From contig NZ_FXZB01000015.1 in the NCBI RefSeq assembly GCF_900169065.1, positions 1-64,000 on the forward strand: a stretch of DNA of 64,000 nt, written 5' to 3'. The notes beneath the pieces are model-generated. The model was not told the origin of the DNA. It was given only the letters and a program-made list of their open reading frames with translations, and did not search any database. Origin of the DNA: Brevibacterium aurantiacum. GTDB taxonomy: Bacteria > Actinomycetota > Actinomycetes > Actinomycetales > Brevibacteriaceae. Each line of letters begins with the position of its first letter. Position 1 is the stretch's first letter. Positions 44,610-61,773 of this stretch are shown here, piece by piece. Made by a program: the position numbers and the translations under genes.

Positions 44610-47560
<2,951 letters not shown>

Positions 47561-47561
<1 letters not shown>

Positions 47562-48844
47562 TGAGTACTGAGAATTCGCCGCGGGAGACCCCGCTGCACG
47601 ATATCCATGCCCAGCTGGGCGCATCCTTCACCGACTTCGGCGGCTGGGACATGCCGCTGAAGTACGGGTCCGAACTGGCTGAGCACCGTGCCGTGCGCGA
47701 AGCCGCAGGCATCTTCGACCTCTCCCACATGGGCGAAGTCCGCCTCACCGGCTCCGACGCTGCGGCATTCCTCGACTACGCGCTCGTGGCGAAGTACTCG
47801 AAGATGAAGATCGGCAAGGCCAAGTACGGTGTGCTCGTCAACGAGGCAGGCTACCTCCTCGATGACCTCATCACCTACCGGATCGGAGACGAAGAGTTCC
47901 TCATCGTCCCCAACGCCTCGAACACTCCGACCGTGGTCGCAGCATTGAAGGAACGGCTGCAGGCCTTTCTGCGTGACGAGTCCCCGGGCGCCGATGCCAA
48001 ACTCTTCGACGAGTCCGAAGACACTGCCCTCATCGCCGTGCAGGGGCCGAACTCCGAGGCCATCATCCTCCGTGCCCTCGACGAGGGTGCACATGGGGAA
48101 TTCGTGCCAGCGACCACCTCGGCGGACGGATCTGCGGCTAACGATGCAGCCGTCGACGGATCCGCGGATGATTCCGCGGTGAACTCGACCGGAATCACCG
48201 TCGGCGAGGCGGTCCGGGAGCTGAAGTACTACGCGTGGATGCCGCTGACGATCGCGGGCATCGACCTGATGCTCGCACGCACCGGCTACACCGGCGAGGA
48301 CGGCTTCGAGCTCTACATTCCTAACATCGCCGCGCCGCGTCTGTGGGAGACCCTGACGACTGCTGGTGCCGACTACGGCCTCGTGCCCTGCGGCCTGGCC
48401 TCGCGTGACTCGCTGCGCTTGGAAGCGGGTATGCCGCTCTACGGCAACGAACTCAGCCTCGAGACTTCGCCCTTCGACGTCGGACTCGGCCGCATGATCG
48501 GGTTCACAACGAAGGAGAACTTCGCCGCCCGCGACGCGTTGGCCAAGCTGGGGGAGACCGAGCCTCCGCGGGTGCTCGTCGGACTCACCTCCGCGGGTCG
48601 TCGTGCCGCACGATCCGGGGCGAGCGTCTTCGCCTCGGCAGACGAGGTCGGCGCCGAAGGCGGGACGACCGTCGGGACCATCACCTCCGGACAGCCTTCG
48701 CCGACGCTGGGCCACCCGATCGCTCTGGCGTTCCTCGACCGCGGACTCGCCGACCCAGGCACGCCCGTATTCGTGGACATCCGCGGCAAGGCACATGAGT
48801 TCTCCGTGACCGAGCTGCCGTTCTACAAGCGCGGCGAGAACTGA
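47561..48844 (+). CDS. gcvT: Aminomethyltransferase, glycine cleavage T protein
   Basis: A 427-residue T protein that releases ammonia from the GcvH-bound aminomethyl group and forms 5,10-methylene-THF. Blocks: GASFTDFGGWDMPLKYGSEL, GIFDLSHMGEVRLTG, VQGPNSEAIILRAL, ARTGYTGEDGFELYIP, GLASRDSLRLEAGMPLYG. The usual length is about 365-375; an insertion at residues 183-213 (ADGSAANDAAVDGSADDSA and flanks) explains part of the excess. Its ATG overlaps the last base of the gcvP stop (TGATG), indicating coupling. ATG 47561 is preferred to an upstream in-frame start inside gcvP. Confidence 0.94.
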
Positions 48845-48864
48845 TCCGTCGATCCTGATGCTGT

Positions 48865-48893
48865 TGCCCCCGGTGGCTCGTACACTGGGGGCA
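48865..48893. terminator. Hairpin between gcvT and gcvH
   Basis: TGCCCCC-GTG and CAC-GGGGGCA form a 10-11-bp stem with one mismatch over a 7-nt loop, 20 nt past the gcvT stop. gcvH follows after 43 nt, so this may be a partial terminator or processing site that sets relative gcvH levels. Confidence 0.5.
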
Positions 48894-48936
48894 CCTGCTC
48901 ACCAACTAGCTGTCAATTAAGCAGAAAAGGACAATC

Positions 48937-49335
48937 ATGGCTGAATTGCCCCCGCTCCCACAGAACTTCACCTACTCCGCTGAGCACGAGTGGATCAACG
49001 CCGGAGCCGACGCCATCGTCGGCAACACGGTGAAGATCGGCATCACCGCGGTCGCCGCTGACGCCCTCGGCGAGGTCGTCTACGTGGACCTGCCAGAGGT
49101 CGGCGACACCGTCACCGCAGGCGAGACCTGTGGCGAGGTCGAATCGACCAAGTCGGTCTCCGACCTCTACTGCCCGGTCACCGGCGAGGTCACCGCCATC
49201 AACGAGGCCGCCACGGACAACCCCGGCGTGCTCAACTCCGACCCCTACGGCGACGGCTGGCTGTTCGAAGTCAACGTCACCGAACTGGGCGAAGTCATGG
49301 ACGCAGCAGGCTACGCAGAGGCCAACTCCCTCTGA
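48937..49335 (+). CDS. gcvH: Glycine cleavage H protein
   Basis: A 132-residue lipoyl carrier. The lipoylated Lys is in [15 protein letters not shown], within the flattened beta-barrel (YSAEHEWI at the N terminus; [20 protein letters not shown]). It shuttles the aminomethyl group from GcvP to GcvT and electrons to lipoamide dehydrogenase, which is not encoded in this window. AAAGGAC precedes ATG 48937. It lies third in the gcvPTH order, then sdaA. Confidence 0.95.
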
Positions 49336-49348
49336 CACACCCTCCGAC

Positions 49349-49421
49349 CGATGGGACCGACCACGGCTGGAGTCATCCGGCCTGACTGGGCCGGAACGAC
49401 CCGGCCCGGTCGGTCCCATCG
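49349..49421 (+). terminator. Long nested hairpin between gcvH and sdaA
   Basis: CGATGGGACCGACC (49349-49362) pairs perfectly with GGTCGGTCCCATCG (49408-49421); inside, CCGGCC and GGCCGG form a second stem. The 73-nt structure ends 29 nt before the sdaA ATG and lies in the only gap between gcvH and sdaA, so it could terminate or attenuate transcription into sdaA. Confidence 0.6.
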
Positions 49422-49450
49422 ATCACCCGAAAAGAATCGGAGTATCTTTC

Positions 49451-50929
49451 ATGCCATTGAGCGTCTTCGATCTCTTTACCGTCGGCATCGGCCCGTCGAG
49501 TTCCCACACCGTCGGCCCGATGCGAGCGGCATCGAGCTTCCCCACACTTCTGGGCGACAAGCTGGGATCCGTTGCAAGCATCAAGGTTGATGTCTTCGGA
49601 TCCCTCGCCGCCACCGGTGCCGGACACGGCACCTTCGACGCCATCCTGATCGGCCTGGAAGGCTGTGCACCCGACGCTGTCGAAGCCAATGAACTCACCG
49701 CCCGCCGGACCCGTATGTCCGAAACCGGGACGATCCTCCTCGGCGACGCAGTCGGGCACGGCGTCGAGATCGCCTTCACCGAGGACGACATGGTCAAGCG
49801 TCCCCTGACCATCAAGCCTCGCCACACGAACGCCATGACCATCACAGCCTTCGACGCCGAAGGCCAGACCCTGGCCGAAGAGACCTACTATTCCGTCGGC
49901 GGCGGCTTCGTCACCTCCGAGACCGAGTTCCTGGAGAAGGAGCAGGCCGCCGAGGTTGTTGCTGAGTCGGGAGAGGACGACACCAGCGAGTTCGCCGTTG
50001 CCGATGCTGTCGTCGACGCCGAGCTGCAGTCCTACAGCGAAGAGCTCCCGTACCCGTTCCACTCGGCCGTCGAACTCCTGCAGCGCTGCAAGGAAAGCGA
50101 CATGTCGATCGCCGAGATCATGCTCGCCAACGAGAAGTCGATGCGCGATGAGGACGAGATCCGTCACGGCCTCCTGCACATCTACTCCGTGATGGAAGAG
50201 TGCGCTTCGGCGTCCCTGGACCGCTCGGGCTACCTGCCGGGCGGGCTCAACGTGCGCAGGCGCGCCCACGACTGGTACCTCAAGCTCAAGGCCGAGGATC
50301 CCGACCGCGACCCCGGCTACTACCTGGAGTGGGTCAATCTCATCGCCATGGCCGTCAACGAGGAGAACGCCTCGGGCGGACGCGTCGTCACCGCACCGAC
50401 GAACGGCGCTGCCGGCATCATCCCCGCAGTCCTCCACTATGCGCTCAACTACGTGGATTCCGTGGTCAAGGGCGGCGAGGCTGCCAAGCACGCGGCGATC
50501 GTGGACTTCGTGCTCACCTCGGCGGCGGTGGGTGTCCTCTATAAGGAGAGAGCATCCATCTCCGGCGCCGAGGTGGGCTGCCAGGGCGAGGTCGGATCCG
50601 CCTCCTCGATGGCTGCCGGGGGACTGGCCGCGATCATGGGCGGCACCCCGGAGCAGATCGAGAACGCCGCCGAGATCGCCATGGAGCACAACCTGGGCCT
50701 GACCTGCGACCCGATCTCCGGGCTCGTGCAGGTCCCCTGCATCGAACGCAACGCGATCGCGGCAGGCAAGGCCATCAACGCCTCCCGGATGGCCCTGTGG
50801 GGCGATGGCCAGCACAGGGTCAGCCTCGACGAGGTGATCGAGACGATGCGCCAGACAGGTGCGGACATGAGCTCGAAGTACAAGGAGACAGCGCAGGGCG
50901 GCCTCGCCGTCAACGTCGTCGAATGCTGA
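49451..50929 (+). CDS. sdaA: L-serine ammonia-lyase (iron-sulphur, single chain)
   Basis: A 492-residue serine dehydratase that turns L-serine into pyruvate and ammonia using a 4Fe-4S cluster. The beta domain leads ([20 protein letters not shown]) and the alpha domain follows ([59 protein letters not shown] with cluster cysteines). Usual length is about 455; an acidic insertion at residues 160-196 ([20 protein letters not shown]) accounts for the rest. Position after gcvPTH suits conversion of glycine to serine to pyruvate. ATG 49451 gives the conserved N terminus. Confidence 0.94.
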
Positions 50930-51020
50930 GGTAGCCCGCGGGGCTGTCGTATGGGCGGCCCTTCCAGCGTCCTCGAGGCTGCCGCGCTAGGTTTTCACCC
51001 TCCGGTGCCGTCGAAACCCC

Positions 51021-51070
51021 GCCTGCGCGTCGAAACATCGCTGTGGGCATAGGGGCTTCGACACGCAGGC
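51021..51070 (+). terminator. Hairpin downstream of sdaA
   Basis: GCCTGCGCGTCGAA (51021-51034) pairs with TTCGACACGCAGGC (51057-51070), 13 of 14 positions, over a 22-nt loop. It lies about 90 nt past the sdaA stop and is the likely end of the gcv-sda transcript. Confidence 0.5.
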
Positions 51071-51270
51071 GCTGTCTCGGTGAAAAGTCGCTTCCTGCTG
51101 CCTGTTTCAGCTGCGTGAGAGGCCGGTATCTGACACCCGCTGCCCTCACCCGCATCCATGCATTGCCCTATCCAGCAACCCTCCCTGCCTTTCCCGCCGT
51201 CCAGCCGGATGGCTGTCTCCGGCACCCCGAATAGTCATCCGGAAGTCATGCCCCGAGGTGGCGTCGAAAC

Positions 51271-51298
51271 GTGGAACAACCGTGGAACCGCTGTTCCA
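51271..51298. promoter_or_regulatory. GTGGAAC repeat cluster upstream of ectA
   Basis: GTGGAAC occurs at 51271-51277 and 51282-51288, and TGGAAC-CGCT-GTTCCA (51283-51298) is a perfect inverted repeat. It is about 165 nt before the ectA -35, a plausible upstream operator for osmotic control; no binding protein is known here. Confidence 0.35.
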
Positions 51299-51463
51299 AA
51301 AGTGCTGAAATGTAACGAAACGATAACGAAGCTCTGCCCCGGAATGAGCGCGGAAGAGCGCCCTGGCGCATCCCAGAGATGCCATGGGGAAACCCCGGTT
51401 CGTGACGTCGGGAACACGCGCGGGAATCACCACTGAATGGGGCGTGAATCACCGGTTTTCGAG

Positions 51464-51491
51464 TTGACGCTCATCCTCAGGTCGTTAGGTT
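51464..51491 (+). promoter_or_regulatory. ectA promoter (leaderless)
   Basis: TTGACG (51464-51469), a 16-nt spacer and TAGGTT (51486-51491) precede GTG 51499 by 7 nt, so transcription should begin at or next to the start codon. No ribosome-binding site is visible before that GTG, consistent with a leaderless message. Confidence 0.65.
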
Positions 51492-51498
51492 TGAAGGC

Positions 51499-51993
51499 GT
51501 GAGAAACGCAGTCGCTGAACCTCAAACAGAAACCGATGTCCGTGTTCCAACTATGGAAGACGGTCAACACATGTGGAGACTGGCTAAAGATTCGGCCGTT
51601 CTCGACCTGAACTCCTCGTACTCCTACATTCTGTGGTGCCGAGACTTCTCGGCCACCTCGACGATCGCGCGAATCGGCGGAGAGCCCGCCGGGTTCGTCA
51701 CCGGCTACACCCGCCCGGATCGGCCTAACACGCTGATGATCTGGCAGGTCGCAGTCTCGTCGGACTTCCGCGGACACGGATTGGCGAAGACCATGCTCAA
51801 CGAGCTGGCCGATCGCACCAATGCGCTCCGCCTGGAGACGACGATCACCGATGACAACGACGCTTCAAACCGTCTGTTCCAGTCATTCGCTGAGCAGCGT
51901 GACGCTAATTGCGAACGAAGCGCGCTGATCACTCCGGATCTGTACCCGGACGGTCACGACACAGAATACCTGTACGAGATCGCACCACTGTGA
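51499..51993 (+). CDS. ectA: L-2,4-diaminobutyrate acetyltransferase
   Basis: A 164-residue GNAT enzyme that acetylates L-2,4-diaminobutyrate at the 4-amino group, second step of ectoine synthesis. EctA blocks are clear: DLNSSYSYILWCRDFSATST, GFVTGYTRPDRPNTLMIWQV, the acetyl-CoA loop VSSDFRGHGLAKTMLNEL and TITDDNDASNRLFQSFA. GTG 51499 is chosen because TAGGTT lies 7 nt before it. ectB follows after 167 nt and ectC after that, the usual order. Expression is expected to rise with salt, though no regulator gene is adjacent. Confidence 0.95.
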   Translation: MRNAVAEPQTETDVRVPTMEDGQHMWRLAKDSAVLDLNSSYSYILWCRDFSATSTIARIGGEPAGFVTGYTRPDRPNTLMIWQVAVSSDFRGHGLAKTMLNELADRTNALRLETTITDDNDASNRLFQSFAEQRDANCERSALITPDLYPDGHDTEYLYEIAPL

Positions 51994-52160
51994 TGCACCG
52001 CTGAAAAGCCTGGTGCCACCTGGCGTCCGAGGGATCAACTGATTCCGTCTGAGGGTGCCGACCGGCGACAGCCGTACCCGATGTTGATCGGTCGCGGCCA
52101 CCGCCTAGGCGCTTGCTCACGAGGCAAGTGCGTAATCCAGAAGTCGAAAGGACTCAAGTG

Positions 52161-53459
52161 ATGACCGAAAACTCTAAGACCACGAAGCCCGACATCTTTG
52201 AAACCCGCGAATCAGAGGTGCGAGGATACTCGCGCTCCTGGCCCGCCACCTTTGCCAAGGCACAGGGTGCGAAGCAGTGGGGCGAAGACGGCAAGGAATT
52301 CATCGATTTCTTCTCCGGCGCCGGAGCACTCAACTACGGGCACAACAACCCCGTCGTGATGAACCCTCTCATCGAGTACCTCCAGTCGGGTGCAGTCCTG
52401 CACTCGCTGGACATGAAGACCCCGGCCAAGCGTGAGTTCCTCGAGACCTTCCAGGACCTCATCCTCAAGCCACGCGGACTCGACTACACCGTGATGTTCC
52501 CCGGACCAACGGGAACCAACACCGTCGAGGCTGCCCTCAAGCTGGCTCGTAAGGTCACCGGACGTCAGCACATGCTGTCCTTCACCAACGCATTCCACGG
52601 CATGACCCTGGGATCGCTGTCGGTGACCGGCAACTCGATGAAGCGCGAAGGCGCAGGCATCCCGCTGACCAACAGCTCGAAGATTCCCTACGACGACTAC
52701 TTCGACGGAGAGATCCCAGACTTCCTGTGGCTCGAGAAGGTCCTCGAAGACTCCGGCTCCGGCGTCGACAAGCCAGCCGCTGTCATCGTTGAGACCGTGC
52801 AGGGTGAAGGCGGCCTCCGCGCCGCACGCGCCGAATGGCTGCGCGCCCTGTCCGAGCTGACCAAGAAGCACGACATCCTCCTCATCGTCGATGACGTGCA
52901 GGCCGGCTGTGGCCGTACCGGATCCTTCTTCAGCTTCGAAGAGGCCGGCATCGAGCCAGACATCGTCTGCCTGTCGAAGTCGATCTCCGGTTCGGGTCTG
53001 CCGATGGCACTGACCCTCTTCCGCCCCGAGCTCGATGTTTGGGAACCGGGCGAGCACAACGGAACCTTCCGCGGAAACAACCCCGCATTCGTCACGGCGA
53101 CCGCCGCGATCAAGAACTTCTGGGCCGACAACACCTTCCAGAACGAATTGGCCGACACCATCGCCGCACTGCACCAGCGCCTCGACTCGATCGTGGAAAA
53201 GGCAGAGGGAGCATCCATCCGTGGACGCGGACTCCTCGCCGGACTCCACTTCGCCGATGACGAGGTCGCCGGCAAGGTGGCAGCAGAAGCCTTCGAAAAC
53301 GGCCTGCTCCTCGAGACCTCGGGTCCCAAGGATGAGGTCACGAAGATCATGCCTCCGCTGACCATCTCCTCGCACGATCTGGAACAGGGTCTCGACATCA
53401 TCGAGGCTGCTGTGCTGAAGTTCGCTCCGGCCACCAACGCAGAATCTGCGGCGGTCTGA
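52161..53459 (+). CDS. ectB: L-2,4-diaminobutyrate aminotransferase
   Basis: A 432-residue class-III PLP aminotransferase making L-2,4-diaminobutyrate from aspartate semialdehyde and glutamate, the first committed step to ectoine. It opens [20 protein letters not shown], typical of EctB, then [59 protein letters not shown] and the PLP lysine in [23 protein letters not shown] 52161 follows GAAAGGACTCAAGTG; earlier in-frame codons add a tail absent from the family. A strong hairpin separates it from ectC. Confidence 0.96.
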
Positions 53460-53539
53460 GCCTGCTCCCAGCTGAGCGCGAGAGCCTGGAAAGCCGAGTT
53501 TCGGTTCGCTGAGACTCAACCATGAAACTTGAATGACGC

Positions 53540-53583
53540 GTTGCCGGTGGATCGGTCGACATTTCGACTGATGCATCGGCAAC
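53540..53583 (+). repeat. 20-bp-stem hairpin between ectB and ectC
   Basis: The arms 53540-53559 (GTTGCCGGTGGATCGGTCGA) and 53564-53583 pair over all 20 positions except one G-G, with two G-T pairs, around a 4-nt loop. It lies 31 nt before ectC. A stem this long in mid-operon suggests processing, attenuation or mRNA protection rather than a normal terminator. Confidence 0.75.
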
Positions 53584-53614
53584 CCGTCTGATATGCCAAT
53601 TGAAAGGACCACGA

Positions 53615-54007
53615 ATGTACGTAGTCAACCGCGATGACCTCAATGACACCGACCGCGATATCAAGTCGGAGACCTGGCGCAGCCGCCGCATGGTGCTGGG
53701 CAAGGAGCGCGTCGGATTCTCGCTTCACGACACCGTGATCTACGCCGGAACCACCTCGACTTTCCACTACCAGAACCACGTCGAAGCCGTGTACTGCGTG
53801 CAGGGCAAGGGCACTCTGACCGATCAGGAGACCGGCGAGACCTACGAGCTCTCTGACGGCACCATGTACCTGCTCGACGGACACGAGAAGCACACCGTGG
53901 TCGCCGAGGAAGAGCTGCGCATGGCCTGCGTCTTCAACCCGCCGGTCACCGGTCGTGAGACTCACGACGAGAACGGCGTCTACCCGCTCATCGTCGAAGA
54001 GGACTGA
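53615..54007 (+). CDS. ectC: L-ectoine synthase
   Basis: A 130-residue cupin that cyclises N-gamma-acetyl-diaminobutyrate to ectoine. Metal/cupin residues lie in [40 protein letters not shown] and [20 protein letters not shown]. Length matches the family (about 130). ATG 53615 follows GAAAGGACCACGA. It completes ectABC; no ectD hydroxylase gene follows in the window, so 5-hydroxyectoine would need a gene elsewhere. A hairpin with a T5 tail ends the operon. Confidence 0.96.
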
Positions 54008-54095
54008 GATCCTCTCCTGAGCTGAAAAGCTCCATCGCCGAGGTGGCTGATCCGTTGATCAATCACCGAGGTTGAGTCCGGCCTCCGGACCCCAT

Positions 54096-54169
54096 AGCTG
54101 GTGGTCACGGAACTGAGGTAGATCCGCAATCTGCGGGTTTTGCCCCAGTTCCGTGGCCACCAGCTTTTT
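54096..54169 (+). terminator. Terminator of ectABC, long and nested
   Basis: AGCTGGTGGTCACGGAACTG and three more bases (54096-54118) pair with 54143-54165 over 23 positions with two G-T-type differences; CCGCA-ATC-TGCGG forms an inner stem and TTTTT ends it (54165-54169). A small perfect GTCCGG/CCGGAC hairpin (54076-54090) precedes it. Confidence 0.8.
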
Positions 54170-54207
54170 GTATGGAACGCGATGCTGGTGAGCGATAAGA
54201 TTGCCTT

Positions 54208-54681
54208 GTGACGCTGGTGGCGGAGTACAACGATGCCCGGCGCGCAGAGGGGATTGCCCGCGTGCGCAGGGTCATCGTCTTGCGCGCGATGAATGTGCTT
54301 GGGCTGAGTCAGCGCGAAATCGCAGCTTCTCTGGGAATAAGCCAGCCAGCCGTCAGCCAGCAAGTCGCGGCATCCACTAATTTCGGCAACTTGTCAGCCG
54401 CGGAACTGCTAGAAGCGGCAGCGCCGATTTTGCGGCTCGTCGCTGAGAAGTATCGATACACCGAGCTGGCAGTCTTCGGGTCCGTGGCTCGAGGGGACTC
54501 TCGTGCGGAATCGGATATAGATCTATTAGTGCAACCGCCTCCGGGCACCTCTTCGTTCGACTTTGTCGAGTTCAAGCAGCTAGTTGAGAAGGTTCTCGGT
54601 CGTGAGATCGATTTGATCTCCTACGGCGGCCTTGACCCTGTGCTCGACGCGGACATCCTGCACGATAAGAGGCTCCTCTGA
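54208..54681 (+). CDS. HTH plus MNT-type nucleotidyltransferase (orphan antitoxin-like)
   Basis: A 157-residue fusion: an XRE-like HTH at residues 18-55 (RVIVLRAMNVLGLSQREIAA, SLGISQPAVSQQVA) and a minimal nucleotidyltransferase domain from about residue 78 (ELAVFGSVARGDSRAESDID, with GSxxRG and the D-x-D pair; then LGREIDLISYGGL). MNT proteins usually pair with a HEPN ribonuclease and inactivate it by AMPylation. No HEPN gene lies on either side. TAAGAT (54196-54201) ends 6 nt before GTG 54208, with TGGAAC 17 nt further upstream, so it appears leaderless. Confidence 0.8.
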   Translation: MTLVAEYNDARRAEGIARVRRVIVLRAMNVLGLSQREIAASLGISQPAVSQQVAASTNFGNLSAAELLEAAAPILRLVAEKYRYTELAVFGSVARGDSRAESDIDLLVQPPPGTSSFDFVEFKQLVEKVLGREIDLISYGGLDPVLDADILHDKRLL

Positions 54682-54721
54682 TGCTTGTCGCTGTCGCCAA
54701 GGATCTCCTGCATATGAAGAC

Positions 54722-54850
54722 ATGGCCAGAGCGGCCAAGAAGGGCAAGGCCACGTACAAGGTCAAGACGAAGAGCAAGAAGACCTACCGCGTGACCTTCG
54801 GCCAGTCGAGCTGGGCGACTGGCGCCACCTCGAAGTCGGCCAAGCGCTGA
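54722..54850 (+). CDS. Small basic protein, hypothetical
   Basis: A possible 42-residue protein, 15 of its residues Lys or Arg, beginning MARAAKKGKATYKVKTKSKK and ending TSKSAKR. It has no clear ribosome site (GAAGAC only) and no family match; its last codons are duplicated just downstream. It could be a small nucleic-acid-binding protein or a remnant of a larger gene that once followed the MNT gene. Confidence 0.35.
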   Translation: MARAAKKGKATYKVKTKSKKTYRVTFGQSSWATGATSKSAKR

Positions 54851-54883
54851 CCATCTGCGAATGAGGTCGGCCAGGCGCTGACC
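54835..54883. repeat. 18-bp direct repeat around the end of the small basic frame
   Basis: GTCGGCCAAGCGCTGACC (54835-54852) recurs as GTCGGCCAGGCGCTGACC (54866-54883), one difference in 18. The first copy contains the stop codon of the small basic frame. Confidence 0.8.
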
Positions 54884-54904
54884 TCCCTGGGCAGTACACC
54901 GAGG

Positions 54905-55204
54905 TCACTCGCGGATGATCAGGTCTGTCCCGTGCATATATCCGCGAGACCCTTCGAACGGACCTAGTGCTTCGCAGAGAGGCAGCCCCAACACACCGAG
55001 ATCGGCGGTCTGACGGGCTCCGGCCGACTTGGCCATGAGGTTCTGGCTGTAACGGAGTTCGCCGATCTCAGCATCGGTGACCGTCCAGATGACCACCTGC
55101 GGTGGATCATCATTGGTGAACGTCACTCGATGGGCATCGGCCGTGACCGACCACCCGGTCGCCTCGGCGAGGGAATCGGCCAACTCTGTGCGATCCACAG
55201 TCAT
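54905..55204 (-). CDS. Hypothetical protein
   Basis: A 99-residue soluble, acidic protein (DRTELADSLAEATGWSVTAD, VVIWTVTDAEIGELRYSQNL, LPLCEALGPFEGSRGYMHGT). I do not recognise a family. ATG 55204 is preceded by CTAGGAGGAAGGCCC, a good ribosome site, which is the main reason to call it. It follows the AGCS symporter on the same strand but is separated from it by a perfect hairpin, so it is probably expressed on its own. Confidence 0.6.
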   Translation of the reverse strand: MTVDRTELADSLAEATGWSVTADAHRVTFTNDDPPQVVIWTVTDAEIGELRYSQNLMAKSAGARQTADLGVLGLPLCEALGPFEGSRGYMHGTDLIIRE

Positions 55205-55241
55205 GGGGCCTTCCTCCTAGGTAGAGAACAGTGAAAGCCAC

Positions 55242-55272
55242 ATCGGGCGCCCCCAGGGAAGGGGCGCCCGAT
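55242..55272 (-). terminator. Terminator after the AGCS symporter
   Basis: ATCGGGCGCCCC (55242-55253) pairs perfectly with GGGGCGCCCGAT (55261-55272) over a 7-nt loop, 29 nt past the symporter stop on the minus strand; GTGGCTTTCAC follows on that strand. Confidence 0.7.
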
Positions 55273-55301
55273 ACGCATTCAGGATCAAACTGCCGACAGC
55301 A

Positions 55302-56795
55302 TCAATCGTCGTCCGGGCGCACCTTCTTGCCGCGGTCCTGCCAGAACTTTGCAGTGGTGACTTCGTCTGTGCCGTCCCAAGCGTCGATGTCGGTGTTGAT
55401 GCGCTTGAACGTGGGCAGATCGGAACGGTGGAAGACCGGCTCAAGTCCCTGTCGACGCTGCTGCTGGTAGTTCTTCAGCAGGTTGAACACCAGCGGTGAG
55501 AGCATCAGCAGAGCGAAGAGGTTGATGAGAGCCATGATCGCCATGAAGATGTTCGCCGCGGTCCAGACGATGTCCAGTGCCGCGATCGCCCCGATGAAGA
55601 CCGACACCATCACGATCACCTGGTACACCCGCATGGCAACTTTGCTGGTGGTCAGATGCTCGATATTGGCTTCGCCGTAGTAGTAGTTGCCGAGGATCGA
55701 GGAGAAGGCGAAGAAGAAGATCGCGAAGGTGAGGAAGTGGATTGCCCACTGGCCCAGCTGCCCGCTCAGCGCCGTCTGCGTCAGCTGGATTCCTTCGGCA
55801 GAGCTGCCGTATTCGGGGTTCGACAGCAGGATGATGAACGCTGTGATCGAGCAGACGAGGATCGTGTCGAAGTACACGCCCAGTGCCTGCACGAATCCCT
55901 GTTTGGCCGGGTGAGATGCCGATGCTGTGGCTGCGGCATTCGGGACGGAACCGATTCCGGCCTCGTTGGAGAACAGGCCGCGCTGAACGCCGATGAGCAT
56001 GATCGAGCCGAGCGTTCCACCGGCGATGGAATCCATGCTGAACGCATCGGTGAAGATGGTGAGGATCATGTCGGGGACGGCGCCGAGGTTGAGCACCACG
56101 ACGATGATCCCGACGATCAGGTAGAGACCGGCCATGATCGGCACGAGGTAGGCGGAGATGTTCGAGATGCGCTTGGCTCCGCCGACGAAGATCAGGTAGG
56201 CGCCGACGGCGATGACCACACCGGCGATTGCTGAGAATGCGAAGTTCGAGTCCTCGACATTGAACGATGCACCGACCGCGTCGACGATCGAGTTCGACTG
56301 CACCGTGTTGAACACGATGCCGTAGGTGATGGCGACGATCACGGCGAAGACCAGGCCGAGCCATTTCATGTTCATTCCGTGCCGGATGTAGTAGGCCGGG
56401 CCGCCGCGGAAGTTCGGGCCGTCCTTCATCTTGTAGACCTGGCCGAGAGCGGACTCGGCGAACGCGGTGGCACCGCCGACGACGGCTGTCAGCCACATCC
56501 AGAACACTGCACCGGGGCCGCCCAGCGAAATGGCCAAGGCCACGCCGGCGATGTTGGCCGTGCCCACTCGCGAGGCAGCAGAGATGGAGAAGGCGCGGAA
56601 CGGGGAGATGTTCTTATTGCCCTCGGAGTCTCGTCCACCCGGCTCGGCGAGCGTGCGGAACATTTCGGGGAGCATTCGCACTTGGATCACTCCGGTGCGG
56701 ATGGTGAAATACAGACCAGTGGGAATCAGGACTGCAACGAGTACATAGGACGATACGGAATCGATCCCGTTGAGTGCGTTCTGCAGCATCTCCAT
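55302..56795 (-). CDS. Alanine/glycine:cation symporter (AGCS family)
   Basis: A 497-residue membrane protein with about 10-11 helices and AGCS signatures: IPTGLYFTIRTGVIQVRMLP, SPFRAFSISAASRVGTANIA, GVALAISLGGPGAVFWMW, GGPAYYIRHGMNMKWLGLVF, GVQRGLFSNEAGIGSVPNAA, and ILGNYYYGEANIEHL. It imports alanine or glycine with Na+ or H+. Such genes often carry glycine riboswitches; none is visible upstream. With gcvPTH and sdaA in the same window, glycine uptake would feed that pathway. ATG 56795 follows GGAGGCTCAGTTCC. Confidence 0.93.
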   Translation of the reverse strand: MEMLQNALNGIDSVSSYVLVAVLIPTGLYFTIRTGVIQVRMLPEMFRTLAEPGGRDSEGNKNISPFRAFSISAASRVGTANIAGVALAISLGGPGAVFWMWLTAVVGGATAFAESALGQVYKMKDGPNFRGGPAYYIRHGMNMKWLGLVFAVIVAITYGIVFNTVQSNSIVDAVGASFNVEDSNFAFSAIAGVVIAVGAYLIFVGGAKRISNISAYLVPIMAGLYLIVGIIVVVLNLGAVPDMILTIFTDAFSMDSIAGGTLGSIMLIGVQRGLFSNEAGIGSVPNAAATASASHPAKQGFVQALGVYFDTILVCSITAFIILLSNPEYGSSAEGIQLTQTALSGQLGQWAIHFLTFAIFFFAFSSILGNYYYGEANIEHLTTSKVAMRVYQVIVMVSVFIGAIAALDIVWTAANIFMAIMALINLFALLMLSPLVFNLLKNYQQQRRQGLEPVFHRSDLPTFKRINTDIDAWDGTDEVTTAKFWQDRGKKVRPDDD

Positions 56796-57122
56796 GGAAC
56801 TGAGCCTCCTTCGGCAATCATGCGGTCAGAGGTTCGGGCGGAAGAGTGCCTGAACGTCCGCTGTGTATGCCTTCAGTCTGCCACTAACCCACTCCTGCAG
56901 TGCGCAGGCAGGCGGCGTTTGGCTCATTACCGACCACGAGGCAGTCGAGCGAGCATACGGAATCACGGCCGCACTTGTGAGCGCCTGCTCTGCCAGGGTT
57001 CACGTCACGTCTACCCAATCATCATCCTGCCCTTGCTCTGGTTGCTTAGTCTGATCCGCAACGAACTGCGCCACCGGCCGCTCACCGTCGCTCTGAGCCG
57101 CCACCCCTGAGGAGTCCTCGCC
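56796..57122. other. Divergent intergenic region, AGCS symporter / GDPD
   Basis: The 327 bp must hold two divergent promoters, but I cannot place confident hexamers. A plus-strand open frame near its end reads hydrophobic residues (about 57010-57110) but has no usable start codon close by. No hairpin or repeat of note. Confidence 0.5.
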
Positions 57123-57938
57123 ATGCCAATCACTCTCTTGAACCAATCCACCGCCGAAGTCACCCACACCCGTGTTCCCCCGCTGGTCATCGCTCACCGA
57201 GGAGCGTCCGAGCAGCATCCCGAGAATACGATCCCCGCCTTCGTCGCCGGCATCGATCAGGGTGCGGACATGATCGAGATCGACGTCCACATGAACAAAG
57301 ACGGCGACCTCATCGTCATCCATGACGACACCCTCGACCGCACCACCAACGTCGGCACGATCTACCCCGACCGTGCCGATACCAGCGTGAGCGCCATGAC
57401 GACTGCTGAGATCGCCGCCCTCGATGCGGGCTCGTGGAGGGGGCAGGTGTACAACGGCGTCAGGGTCCCTCACCTCGCCGAGGTGCTGGATCTGGTGCAC
57501 GTGACCCGCACCGGGCTGCTCCTCGAGGTTAAGAAGCCCGCCCAATATCCCGGAATCGCCGAGGTGCTCGTTGAGTCCCTGACTGCCGTGCCTGAATATC
57601 TGGACCGGGCTTTGGCCGCGGGAATGCTCGTCGTCCAGTCCGGCGACTGGGCCTTCGTTCGCGAGTTTCACGCTTTGGCCCCAGAAATCCCTGTCGGTGT
57701 TCTGGGTCGGCCCTGCCCCGATGAACTGCTCGACTTTGCTACCTGGGTCGATCAGATCAACCCGCAATACACCGCAGCCGACGCGACCTTCCTCGGCCAC
57801 GTCCACGGGCTGGGAATGTCGAGCCTGGTGTGGACCGTCAACAGTGTCGAGGACATGGAGAAGGCCATCGACCTCGGCGCCGACGGCATCATCACCAACA
57901 GGCCCGACCGACTTCTCGAGGTCGTCGAAGACCTCTGA
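57123..57938 (+). CDS. Glycerophosphodiester phosphodiesterase
   Basis: A 271-residue GDPD TIM barrel that splits glycerophosphodiesters into sn-glycerol-3-phosphate and an alcohol. Catalytic and metal residues are visible: VIAHRGASEQHPENTIPAF (HRG, ENT), GADMIEIDVHMNKDGDLIVI (ExD) and HDDTLDRTTN (HD), with LEVKKPAQYPG later. No signal peptide, so cytoplasmic. GAGGAGTCC lies before ATG 57123. It stands alone, convergent with a membrane-protein gene; a short tandem repeat follows the stop. Confidence 0.93.
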   Translation: MPITLLNQSTAEVTHTRVPPLVIAHRGASEQHPENTIPAFVAGIDQGADMIEIDVHMNKDGDLIVIHDDTLDRTTNVGTIYPDRADTSVSAMTTAEIAALDAGSWRGQVYNGVRVPHLAEVLDLVHVTRTGLLLEVKKPAQYPGIAEVLVESLTAVPEYLDRALAAGMLVVQSGDWAFVREFHALAPEIPVGVLGRPCPDELLDFATWVDQINPQYTAADATFLGHVHGLGMSSLVWTVNSVEDMEKAIDLGADGIITNRPDRLLEVVEDL

Positions 57939-57970
57939 GGCGGGCTTCAGAACAGCCGGGCTTCAGAGCA
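57939..57970. repeat. 16-bp tandem duplication after the GDPD stop
   Basis: GGCGGGCTTCAGAACA (57939-57954) is followed by GCCGGGCTTCAGAGCA (57955-57970), two differences in 16, in the 40-bp gap between convergent genes. Confidence 0.75.
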
Positions 57971-57978
57971 GCTGGCCC

Positions 57979-58872
57979 TCAGGATCGCCGAGACTTCGCC
58001 ACTGCCGCAGAGACGAACAGAGCCACTGCGCCGATGAAGAGCCCCAGCACTGCTCCCTGCCACAACACCGGGATCAGGGCGCCAAGAGGTAAGAAAGCCA
58101 CCAGCTGGCCTGTGGCGAGATTGCACAGATACATTCCGCAGACCAGGGTGATGAAGCCGGAAGCTCTGATGGCCAGCGACCATCCCGGTGACGAGGCGTT
58201 GACCTGTGCGCGCAAAAGCAGGAACACTGCGGCGACCGTGGCGACTGCAGAGCTCAGGGCGATCGGCCACTCCGACCGATACCACGAGGGCAGCGCAATC
58301 TGTTCGAAGGTTTGGAACATCAGCGCGTGGCAGCAGAACACGATCACCACGCAGGCGAGGAGAACGAGTCCCGGGCCGGTTGTCGCCCGGTCTGCCGCCG
58401 CAGCCTTGCCCATTACAGTAACGAGGACCCCCGCGATGACGAACGGGAACACGAACGCGCCGATGAGCAGTGCGGATTCTGTGAAGGTCAGCGCCAACAT
58501 TTCCGGCCTCGGTCGTTCGATGCTTCCGACGACCTCGGCGATGGCCGAGATTCCGAAGATGGCGATGCTGAGCACGGTGATGATGCTGCGCGGGATGGGC
58601 GAGAGCTCGCGTGCGATGACGATGGCAGCGGCGCCGGCCAGGCAAGCCAGGGCGGACATGGCAATTCCGGCTGGCAAGCTCTGGGCTGAATAGTACTCAG
58701 CCTTCGCGTACATGAGAGCACAGAAGCCGACCCAGGCGACGAAATGAACGATGAACGCGAGTGCGACGATCGTGAAGCGCATCGGAGACGGGCCAACGTC
58801 GGTTGCCGAATTCTGGCCGTCGTCAGGGGAGGCCAAGCGGTCTGCTTCCTGCGAATATGTCAGCTCATCCAT
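57979..58872 (-). CDS. Multi-helix membrane protein of unknown function
   Basis: A 297-residue protein with a hydrophilic 35-residue start (DELTYSQEADRLASPDDGQN) and about eight membrane helices, for example IVALAFIVHFVAWVGFCALM, ALACLAGAAAIVIA and LIGAFVFPFVIAGVLVTVMG. No signature of a transporter or enzyme family is apparent. ATG 58872 follows TGAGAGGATTCCCCC. It is convergent with the GDPD gene and divergent from the HTH gene; no operon partner suggests a role. Confidence 0.7.
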   Translation of the reverse strand: MDELTYSQEADRLASPDDGQNSATDVGPSPMRFTIVALAFIVHFVAWVGFCALMYAKAEYYSAQSLPAGIAMSALACLAGAAAIVIARELSPIPRSIITVLSIAIFGISAIAEVVGSIERPRPEMLALTFTESALLIGAFVFPFVIAGVLVTVMGKAAAADRATTGPGLVLLACVVIVFCCHALMFQTFEQIALPSWYRSEWPIALSSAVATVAAVFLLLRAQVNASSPGWSLAIRASGFITLVCGMYLCNLATGQLVAFLPLGALIPVLWQGAVLGLFIGAVALFVSAAVAKSRRS

Positions 58873-59012
58873 GGGGGAATCCTCTCATGGGAGTCGCATT
58901 TTGTGGCCACTTTCCTTGCTGGAATAGGGAGGGCTGGCTGTGGTGGTGTCCTGAAGTCCGTCGATGTAGAAGCTGGGAGTTTGGACTGGCGGCTTCCGGT
59001 TAAAGATTCATT

Positions 59013-59044
59013 TATATCTGGAAGCGATTTACACTTATATCTGA
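59013..59044. promoter_or_regulatory. Direct repeats before the excisionase-like gene
   Basis: TTATATCTG occurs at 59013-59021 and again at 59036-59044, 23 bp apart (about two helix turns), in an AT-rich patch directly upstream of the ribosome site. It is a likely promoter/operator, possibly autoregulatory. Confidence 0.45.
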
Positions 59045-59059
59045 AAGGTGGAGGTTGAG

Positions 59060-59470
59060 TTGACTGGAAATCGCGAAATGACGTTTGACTCAGCGACGTC
59101 TGCATCCGTTGCAGAACTGCTGGATCGAACGACGAGGACCGACAACGAGTGGGTCATCCGGAAATCTGATTTGGCTCCCCGCGTCGCTGACCTCATTGAA
59201 GCCGTGCTTGAGTCGGTTGCTCACGGTGATGCCATCACCGTCGGGCGAGTACCAGAAGTGCTGACGACCACTATGGCGGCGAAGATACTGGGAATGTCGC
59301 GTCCGACGCTGATGAAGCACATCCGCGATGGCCGCCTGACTTCACACTCTGTTGGCACTCACACTCGCCTGCGGCGTGAAGACGTCGTGGAATTCAGGCG
59401 TTCGCTTCGGGCAGATTGCGCTCGAGCGATTCAAGACCTCATGGAGTTGGAAGACGAACTCGGGATCTGA
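59060..59470 (+). CDS. Excisionase-type HTH protein (antitoxin-like, orphan)
   Basis: A 136-residue DNA-binding protein. The C-terminal half is a MerR/excisionase-type HTH (VLTTTMAAKILGMSRPTLMK, HIRDGRLTSHSVGTHTRLRR, EDVVEFRR); the N-terminal half is a helical region (ELLDRTTRTDNEWVIRKSDL). Proteins of this form commonly serve as antitoxins before a PIN-domain toxin gene, but the next gene here is a thioredoxin-fold protein, so the partner is missing or never existed. TTG 59060 is 5 nt from GGAGG; GTG 59048 overlaps that site. Confidence 0.75.
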   Translation: MTGNREMTFDSATSASVAELLDRTTRTDNEWVIRKSDLAPRVADLIEAVLESVAHGDAITVGRVPEVLTTTMAAKILGMSRPTLMKHIRDGRLTSHSVGTHTRLRREDVVEFRRSLRADCARAIQDLMELEDELGI

Positions 59471-59514
59471 GGCACAGCTTCTCAACTCGGGCCGCCCAAT
59501 GAGACGCTGGGGGC

Positions 59515-61773
<2,259 letters not shown>

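Follow-up and report, generated by a model that had tools for sequence, protein, structure and literature searches.

The gap between ectB and ectC in the ectoine operon of Brevibacterium aurantiacum holds a strong RNA hairpin, and across the genus the same junction carries hairpins that are unrelated in sequence between clades. Structure, constraint, strand asymmetry and recurrence with turnover are all observed here, and what interests us most is that hairpins have turned over repeatedly at a single junction of an operon that is well studied. The reading we prefer, to which we would give an even chance, is that the hairpin acts as a leaky transcript boundary and decay barrier that uncouples ectC from ectAB; end formation, protection and altered stoichiometry at the stem are what we infer from the observations described below. 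All coordinates refer to the window, i.e. the whole stretch of 64,000 nt that was analysed.

The ectoine operon and its surroundings

The identities of ectA (51499-51993; TIGR02406, 1.4e-52), ectB (52161-53459; TIGR02407, 3.5e-195) and ectC (53615-54007; NF009806, 2e-57; also PF06339), all on the forward strand, were confirmed by NCBIfam models. The start of ectA is uncertain (GTG 51499 or ATG 51553, the latter being picked by a simple gene caller). By eye we noticed in the region 51464-51499 the hexamers TTGACG and TAGGTT with 16 nt between them, a pair that the promoter scan did not list; they would place the RNA start near GTG 51499, and hence ectA may be leaderless. The closest relatives of EctC, at 98% identity, include the proteins of B. 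antiquum DSM 21545 and B. aurantiacum XU54. Downstream of ectC we found a terminator-like hairpin (54096-54165, forward strand), an inverted repeat with 30-nt arms that are 83% complementary, supported by the fold and followed by TTTTT. Farther on, the region 54208-54850 encodes a nucleotidyltransferase with an N-terminal helix-turn-helix that resembles the MntA antitoxin, with a score below that model's cut-off, and the short frame that comes next (54722-54850) shows no Pfam match; the region 54208-54850 may be what is left of a type VII toxin-antitoxin pair.

The hairpin between ectB and ectC

The ectB-ectC gap is 155 nt long. Its main stem-loop (53535-53588, forward strand) comprises 23 pairs (4+10+9) interrupted by the mismatches C.C (53539/53584) and G.G (53550/53573), with a loop of 4 nt (53560-53563). 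This 54-nt element has a predicted energy of -38.2 kcal/mol (z -7.8) and none of 200 shuffles folded as well, which bears out the existence of the hairpin noted here in a preliminary description. The 20-bp stem at 53540-53583 reported there corresponds to the inner part of the structure (19 pairs and the G.G mismatch), while the full stem is longer, and the 31 nt said to remain before ectC must be corrected: the distance from the 3' end of the stem to the ATG of ectC (53615) is 26 nt (53589-53614, forward strand). This spacer contains the GAAAGGA ribosome-binding region of ectC, which in the fold lies 3' of the stem and is not covered by it. A fold of the 141 nt around the stem gives z -4.2, and the opposite strand of 53535-53588 folds more weakly (-30.3).

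Upstream of the main stem lies a smaller hairpin (53496-53517, forward strand), which folds with 9 pairs in the window and is partly broken in relatives. The two are joined by an A/U-rich linker (53518-53534, forward strand) that could serve as a candidate endonuclease site. Just 5' of the main hairpin, ATGAAACTTGAATGA (53522-53536) forms a frame of four codons plus a stop; by eye, its start and stop are kept in 11/11 window-type sequences, and no ribosome-binding site is evident.

No second full copy of the hairpin was found in the 4.15-Mb draft genome, and the 21 other matches of the gap to its own genome span 14-31 bases each (best E 0.025). With one full copy in the genome, we ruled out a dispersed, REP-like or mobile palindromic repeat. 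A search of Rfam over the hairpin yielded nothing above the gathering cut-off, the sole match being to a microRNA model (20.3 bits vs 52), and no match above cut-off appeared at 10 related loci. The hairpin is also absent from the list produced by a terminator scan. It is GC-rich, as expected of intrinsic terminators, but no U run directly follows the stem and the maximum near its end is 3 T in any six bases.

We also ran a simple codon-usage gene caller over 864 kb of this genome, made up of the window and 800 kb from further contigs, and scored the best hairpin of each gap that is 40-400 nt long. By strength, the hairpin between ectB and ectC comes 17th among the 222 co-directional gaps. Best hairpins at -30 or below are found in 41/222 co-directional, 36/71 convergent and 5/108 divergent gaps, the median best hairpin of convergent gaps being -30.0; this concentration in convergent gaps implies that such hairpins mark gene ends in this genome. 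The earlier statement that the stem is longer and better paired than most terminators is therefore roughly right, but the stem is not exceptional: it is real and strong, yet of a sort that is ordinary for this genome. Among hairpins of -25 or stronger, at least 4 T in six bases were found in 17/92 strand views of convergent hairpins and 10/53 of co-directional ones, compared with 11.4% of 1203 background samples. Since strong hairpins here are barely T-richer than background, the missing T run was largely dropped as an argument against a terminator. By eye, stems like CGCCGAGGTGG / CCACCTCGGCG are shared by several strong intergenic hairpins of the same genome, which perhaps represent a type of terminator that recurs.

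Constraint on the stem

Hairpins of the window-like type were compared in an alignment of 11 distinct sequences (A3). The number of changes per site, counted by parsimony, is 0.28 and 0.60 in the two stem arms and 1.75 in the loop, with four-fold sites as reference at 1.00 in ectB and 0.98 in ectC. In the spacer 3' of the stem the first 13 nt reach 1.85 and the last 13 nt, with the ribosome-binding site, 0.15; values of 0.46 in the 5' flank, 0.50 in the small hairpin and 0.59 in the A/U-rich linker point to moderate constraint there as well. In the main stem, 11/15 changes from a paired state preserve pairing where 6.7 are expected (P 0.022, a rough value, as the preference of ancestral tie-breaking for C-to-T and A-to-G affects observed and null counts alike). 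In a second clade, characterized by hairpins of the GGGCCGGCG type (alignment A4, 18 sequences), pair-keeping changes make up 6/8 (P 0.096) and 11/20 (P 0.084) in two helices. The small hairpin at 53496-53517 has 90.9% of its cells paired in the 11 clade members, and 2/4 events give no evident pair-keeping selection there.

For the kind of imperfect pair we relied on a count that is free of direction. In the window-type stem, Watson-Crick/G-U variation is found at 7 pairs and Watson-Crick/A-C variation at 1, and for this stem together with three helices of the second clade the totals are 28 for G-U vs 6 for A-C, the small hairpin (2 vs 1) and the f22 hairpin described below (11 vs 6) being kept out of these totals. 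Such an excess of G-U over A-C argues for an RNA element rather than a DNA palindrome. The unpaired columns show C/T and A/G variation at 15 each in the window's clade and at 33 and 17, respectively, in the second clade, which makes the G-U bias of the latter less clean. A directional count of G-U vs A-C changes was discarded, because ancestral tie-breaking favours C-to-T and A-to-G.

The covariation that the preliminary description suggested looking for is weak in the window's clade, where 0/23 pairs of the main stem show two-sided changes among the 11 members, but it is clear in the f22 group (see below). For the main and small helices together, the covariation measures are equalled by 152 to 491 of 500 shuffles; in the second clade, where two-sided changes are found at one pair of the first helix and at four in all, there is no excess over shuffles (58 to 139 of 500 equal it). 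The slow arms, the pair-keeping changes and the G-U bias indicate that the main stem is under evolutionary constraint in the window's own clade.

Turnover within Brevibacterium

EctC was sought in 57 Brevibacterium genomes; 49 matched, two of them at 39% identity were left out, and the ectB-ectC gaps of the remaining 47 were all read. A hairpin of -20 or stronger is present in 39/47 gaps. In 36/47 it is equalled by at most 1/40 shuffles, and in 3 further gaps by 2, 5 and 17 of 40, while the other 8/47 gaps are short (40-66 nt) and lack a hairpin. These 8 hairpin-free gaps, along with the 3 in which shuffles do as well more often, show that the ectB-ectC hairpin is dispensable. The stems of the 36 shuffle-beating gaps have 13 to 27 pairs, as counted in the best hairpin, and by eye their types are unrelated between clades: besides the window-like and GGGCCGGCG types there are several others confined to single lineages.

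On a quick ectB+ectC tree (50 rows, including 4 outgroup rows) we counted at least 6 changes between long and short gaps; presence and absence were coded by gap length for this count (6), with L063, L064, L066 and L128 scored as present. A count of 15 changes of stem type on this tree was set aside, as four rows (L032, L054, L119 and L135) carried wrong type labels, which do not enter the count of 6. By eye, the short gap of L024/L048 still has the beginning of the GGGCCGGCG type, a sign that a deletion may have removed its hairpin. Within the genus Brevibacterium such hairpins have been lost or replaced several times. The gene ectD is present in 22/36 hairpin genomes vs 3/11 others (Fisher P 0.083, relatedness being ignored).

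Other actinobacteria and the ectA-ectB gap

Among 393 genomes drawn from the class, 103 have ectC; 89 loci were read and 5/89 mis-called gaps left out, giving 84 usable ectB-ectC gaps. With the loci of relatives found through EctC added, 38/131 distinct gaps outside Brevibacterium contain a hairpin of -20 or stronger. Covariation is strong in genus g48 (family f22), whose ectB-ectC hairpin shows two-sided changes in 9/20 pairs (27 cells), a result equalled by 0/500 shuffles. This hairpin (L178-L190) has the form CGGGGCCGG...CCGGCCCCG and by eye is unrelated in sequence to those of Brevibacterium. Its alignment (A7) covers 13/14 loci of L177-L190, L177 being left out for its missing anchor motif even though it bears the hairpin; the rows were trimmed by the anchor, which biases the outer pairs and leaves the inner ones unaffected. 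In genus g35, taken as Streptomyces, 7/60 gaps were mis-called and left out, and a hairpin of -20 is present in 10/53 usable rows and missing from 43/53 (one genome is counted twice). Because so few of these presumed Streptomyces rows have a hairpin, the processing reported for Streptomyces lividans (see below) may need none.

The ectA-ectB gap (51994-52160, forward strand, 167 nt) served as a control. It is structured too, with its last hairpin just 5' of ectB. In 37 distinct Brevibacterium sequences, hairpins of -20 are found in 33/37 ectA-ectB vs 29/37 ectB-ectC gaps, and those of -30 in 13/37 vs 27/37, respectively; in other actinomycetes the -20 counts are 17/80 for ectA-ectB vs 15 of the same 80 for ectB-ectC. 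At the -20 threshold, these counts rule out ectB-ectC as the sole structured junction of the operon. Two-sided changes fall on 3 predicted pairs of the last ectA-ectB hairpin (a raw count of 16 cells over 20 rows), and all of these 20 rows have an unchanged AGTCGAAAGGACT, a stretch of this gap that places a ribosome-binding site in a small stem-loop. Of the RNA elements in this operon, the ectA-ectB gap hairpin may be the better one.

Possible role of the hairpin

We propose that part of the ectABC message ends or is cut between ectB and ectC, and that the hairpin would shield the 3' end of the ectAB part against exonucleases. After a cut in the A/U-rich linker, the hairpin would cap the 5' end of the ectC part. 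The remaining message would continue through ectC, so that the level of ectC would differ from that of ectA and ectB, in a mode of action that can be likened to that of the intercistronic decay-barrier stem-loops of puf or malEFG. A stable stem would matter in such a mechanism and its sequence hardly at all, which would explain the unrelated stems of different clades. A complete terminator is unlikely, because it would silence ectC: a promoter of its own would have to fit into the 26 nt that remain, and half of these evolve fast. We therefore favour a leaky boundary. The suggestion made in the preliminary description, that the stem sets EctC stoichiometry, can be kept in this form: the stem is constrained in its clade and is best read as a site of processing or a leaky 3' end, from which an effect on EctC would be deduced.

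The closest competitor is a partial terminator (attenuator), at which the polymerase would sometimes stop and leave ectC below ectAB, with no role in decay; we consider it possible, if somewhat unlikely. The stem resembles the hairpins of convergent gaps, i.e. those at gene ends, and these are hardly T-rich themselves, hence the missing T run does not single out the ectB-ectC stem. Transcript ends of S. lividans that lack a U-rich motif also show more read-through, according to the available text of PMC6742748. Against the attenuator, the stem end, with its at most 3 T per six bases, differs from the hairpin downstream of ectC with its TTTTT. One study cited in PMC10937400, to go by its title, reportedly finds that mycobacterial polymerase requires a U-tract, which also counts against it.

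That the element plays no part in the message, being a neutral palindrome or what is left of a mobile repeat, agrees with its patchy presence, with the differences between the stems of different clades and with the abundance of hairpins of similar strength. It fits poorly with the absence of a second full copy from the genome, with the slow arms beside a fast loop and with the bias of G-U over A-C, and we judge it improbable. A substrate of RNase III would be cut inside the 23-pair stem, the cut deciding the fate of both halves. RNase III sites are about two turns of near-perfect helix, and the length and pairing of the stem come near this, but the range of 13 to 27 pairs among the shuffle-beating gaps means that stem length is not kept, and we find this explanation quite unlikely.

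A promoter of ectC's own, in or beside the gap, has a precedent in Halomonas elongata, where a 5' end 47 bp upstream of ectC coincides with a sigma-54-like sequence (PMC3187862, available text). We regard it as very unlikely in our case: no sigma-70-like match was found in 46000-60000 (a weak argument, as the scan is not actinobacterial and passed over the region upstream of ectA too), the 13 nt 3' of the stem evolve faster than four-fold sites, and from a promoter 5' of the stem transcription would still cross the stem. Finally, an osmosensing or ligand-binding RNA that switches state with salt, an idea for which the function of the operon alone speaks, deserves hardly any credence, as the structure is a plain stem of clade-specific sequence with no Rfam match; the osmotic response envisaged in the preliminary description accordingly finds no support, and by eye the clades have no sequence core in common.

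To return to the leaky boundary and decay barrier, if the junction is a natural point at which stoichiometry is set, a direct test would be to exchange stems between Brevibacterium clades, and the outcome would give insight into how actinobacteria partition the expression of an operon by hairpins without a U run. For producer strains of ectoine, a compatible solute of industrial use, EctC dosage relative to EctAB is a natural design variable. As a tentative and rather doubtful extension, actinobacterial lineages may have repeatedly and independently evolved unrelated ectB-ectC hairpins, and this junction may serve ectoine operons in general as a point of post-transcriptional control. Equally speculative is the corollary that ectoine synthase would here be uncoupled from EctA and EctB, as a parallel to the RNA ends reported at this junction in Streptomyces, Marinococcus and Halomonas.

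Comparison with known systems

Among the articles listed by a literature search there was none on an ectB-ectC hairpin in Brevibacterium. The ectABC genes have been described in Brevibacterium genomes (PMC5719810), with no RNA element named in the available part of that article, and a term search of an ectoine review (PMC5924519) gave neither "intergenic" nor "polycistronic". A further article deals with MtrA at the ectABCD promoter of S. venezuelae (PMC13189361, available part). It is not quite so, however, that no RNA element has been described at this place, as the preliminary description had it: RNA ends are reported from S. lividans (PMC6742748), Marinococcus halophilus (PMC2562377) and H. 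elongata (PMC3187862), whose accounts we cite here from the accessible portions of these articles. In S. lividans, Term-seq and dRNA-seq map a transcript 3' end, together with numerous 5' ends, to the ectB-ectC gap, the RNA level changes across it, and the authors infer an endonucleolytic cleavage that separates ectAB from ectCD, the two parts differing in stability (PMC6742748). This boundary, mapped in strain TK24, is at the same junction of the same operon as ours; it differs in that its RNA ends have been mapped and no hairpin is named for its gap in the available text (PMC6742748).

In Marinococcus and Halomonas, too, RNA ends lie shortly 5' of ectC. The end in M. halophilus, 83 nt upstream of ectC, was considered either a structure artefact or a product of processing (PMC2562377), and the authors of the H. 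elongata study attributed the 5' end there to a putative sigma-54 promoter (PMC3187862). With intrinsic terminators the Brevibacterium stem has in common a GC-rich hairpin resembling those in the convergent gaps of its own genome, but it lies inside an operon, has no T run, and ectC begins 26 nt later.

Hairpins of the ectB-ectC sort are an already known kind of element. In comparison with the decay barriers of puf, malEFG and papBA, the putative one of Brevibacterium is not a repeated sequence, and the nucleases of actinobacteria differ too. These three, puf being that of Rhodobacter, are named, in the available text of PMC5927463, as examples of RNA structures that set stability within operons. 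The likeness to the ectB-ectC hairpin consists in a strong stem that bounds one segment of an operon (co-transcription of ectB and ectC being presumed), and the stem-loops of these systems are thought to protect that segment from nucleases and to set stoichiometry (PMC5927463).
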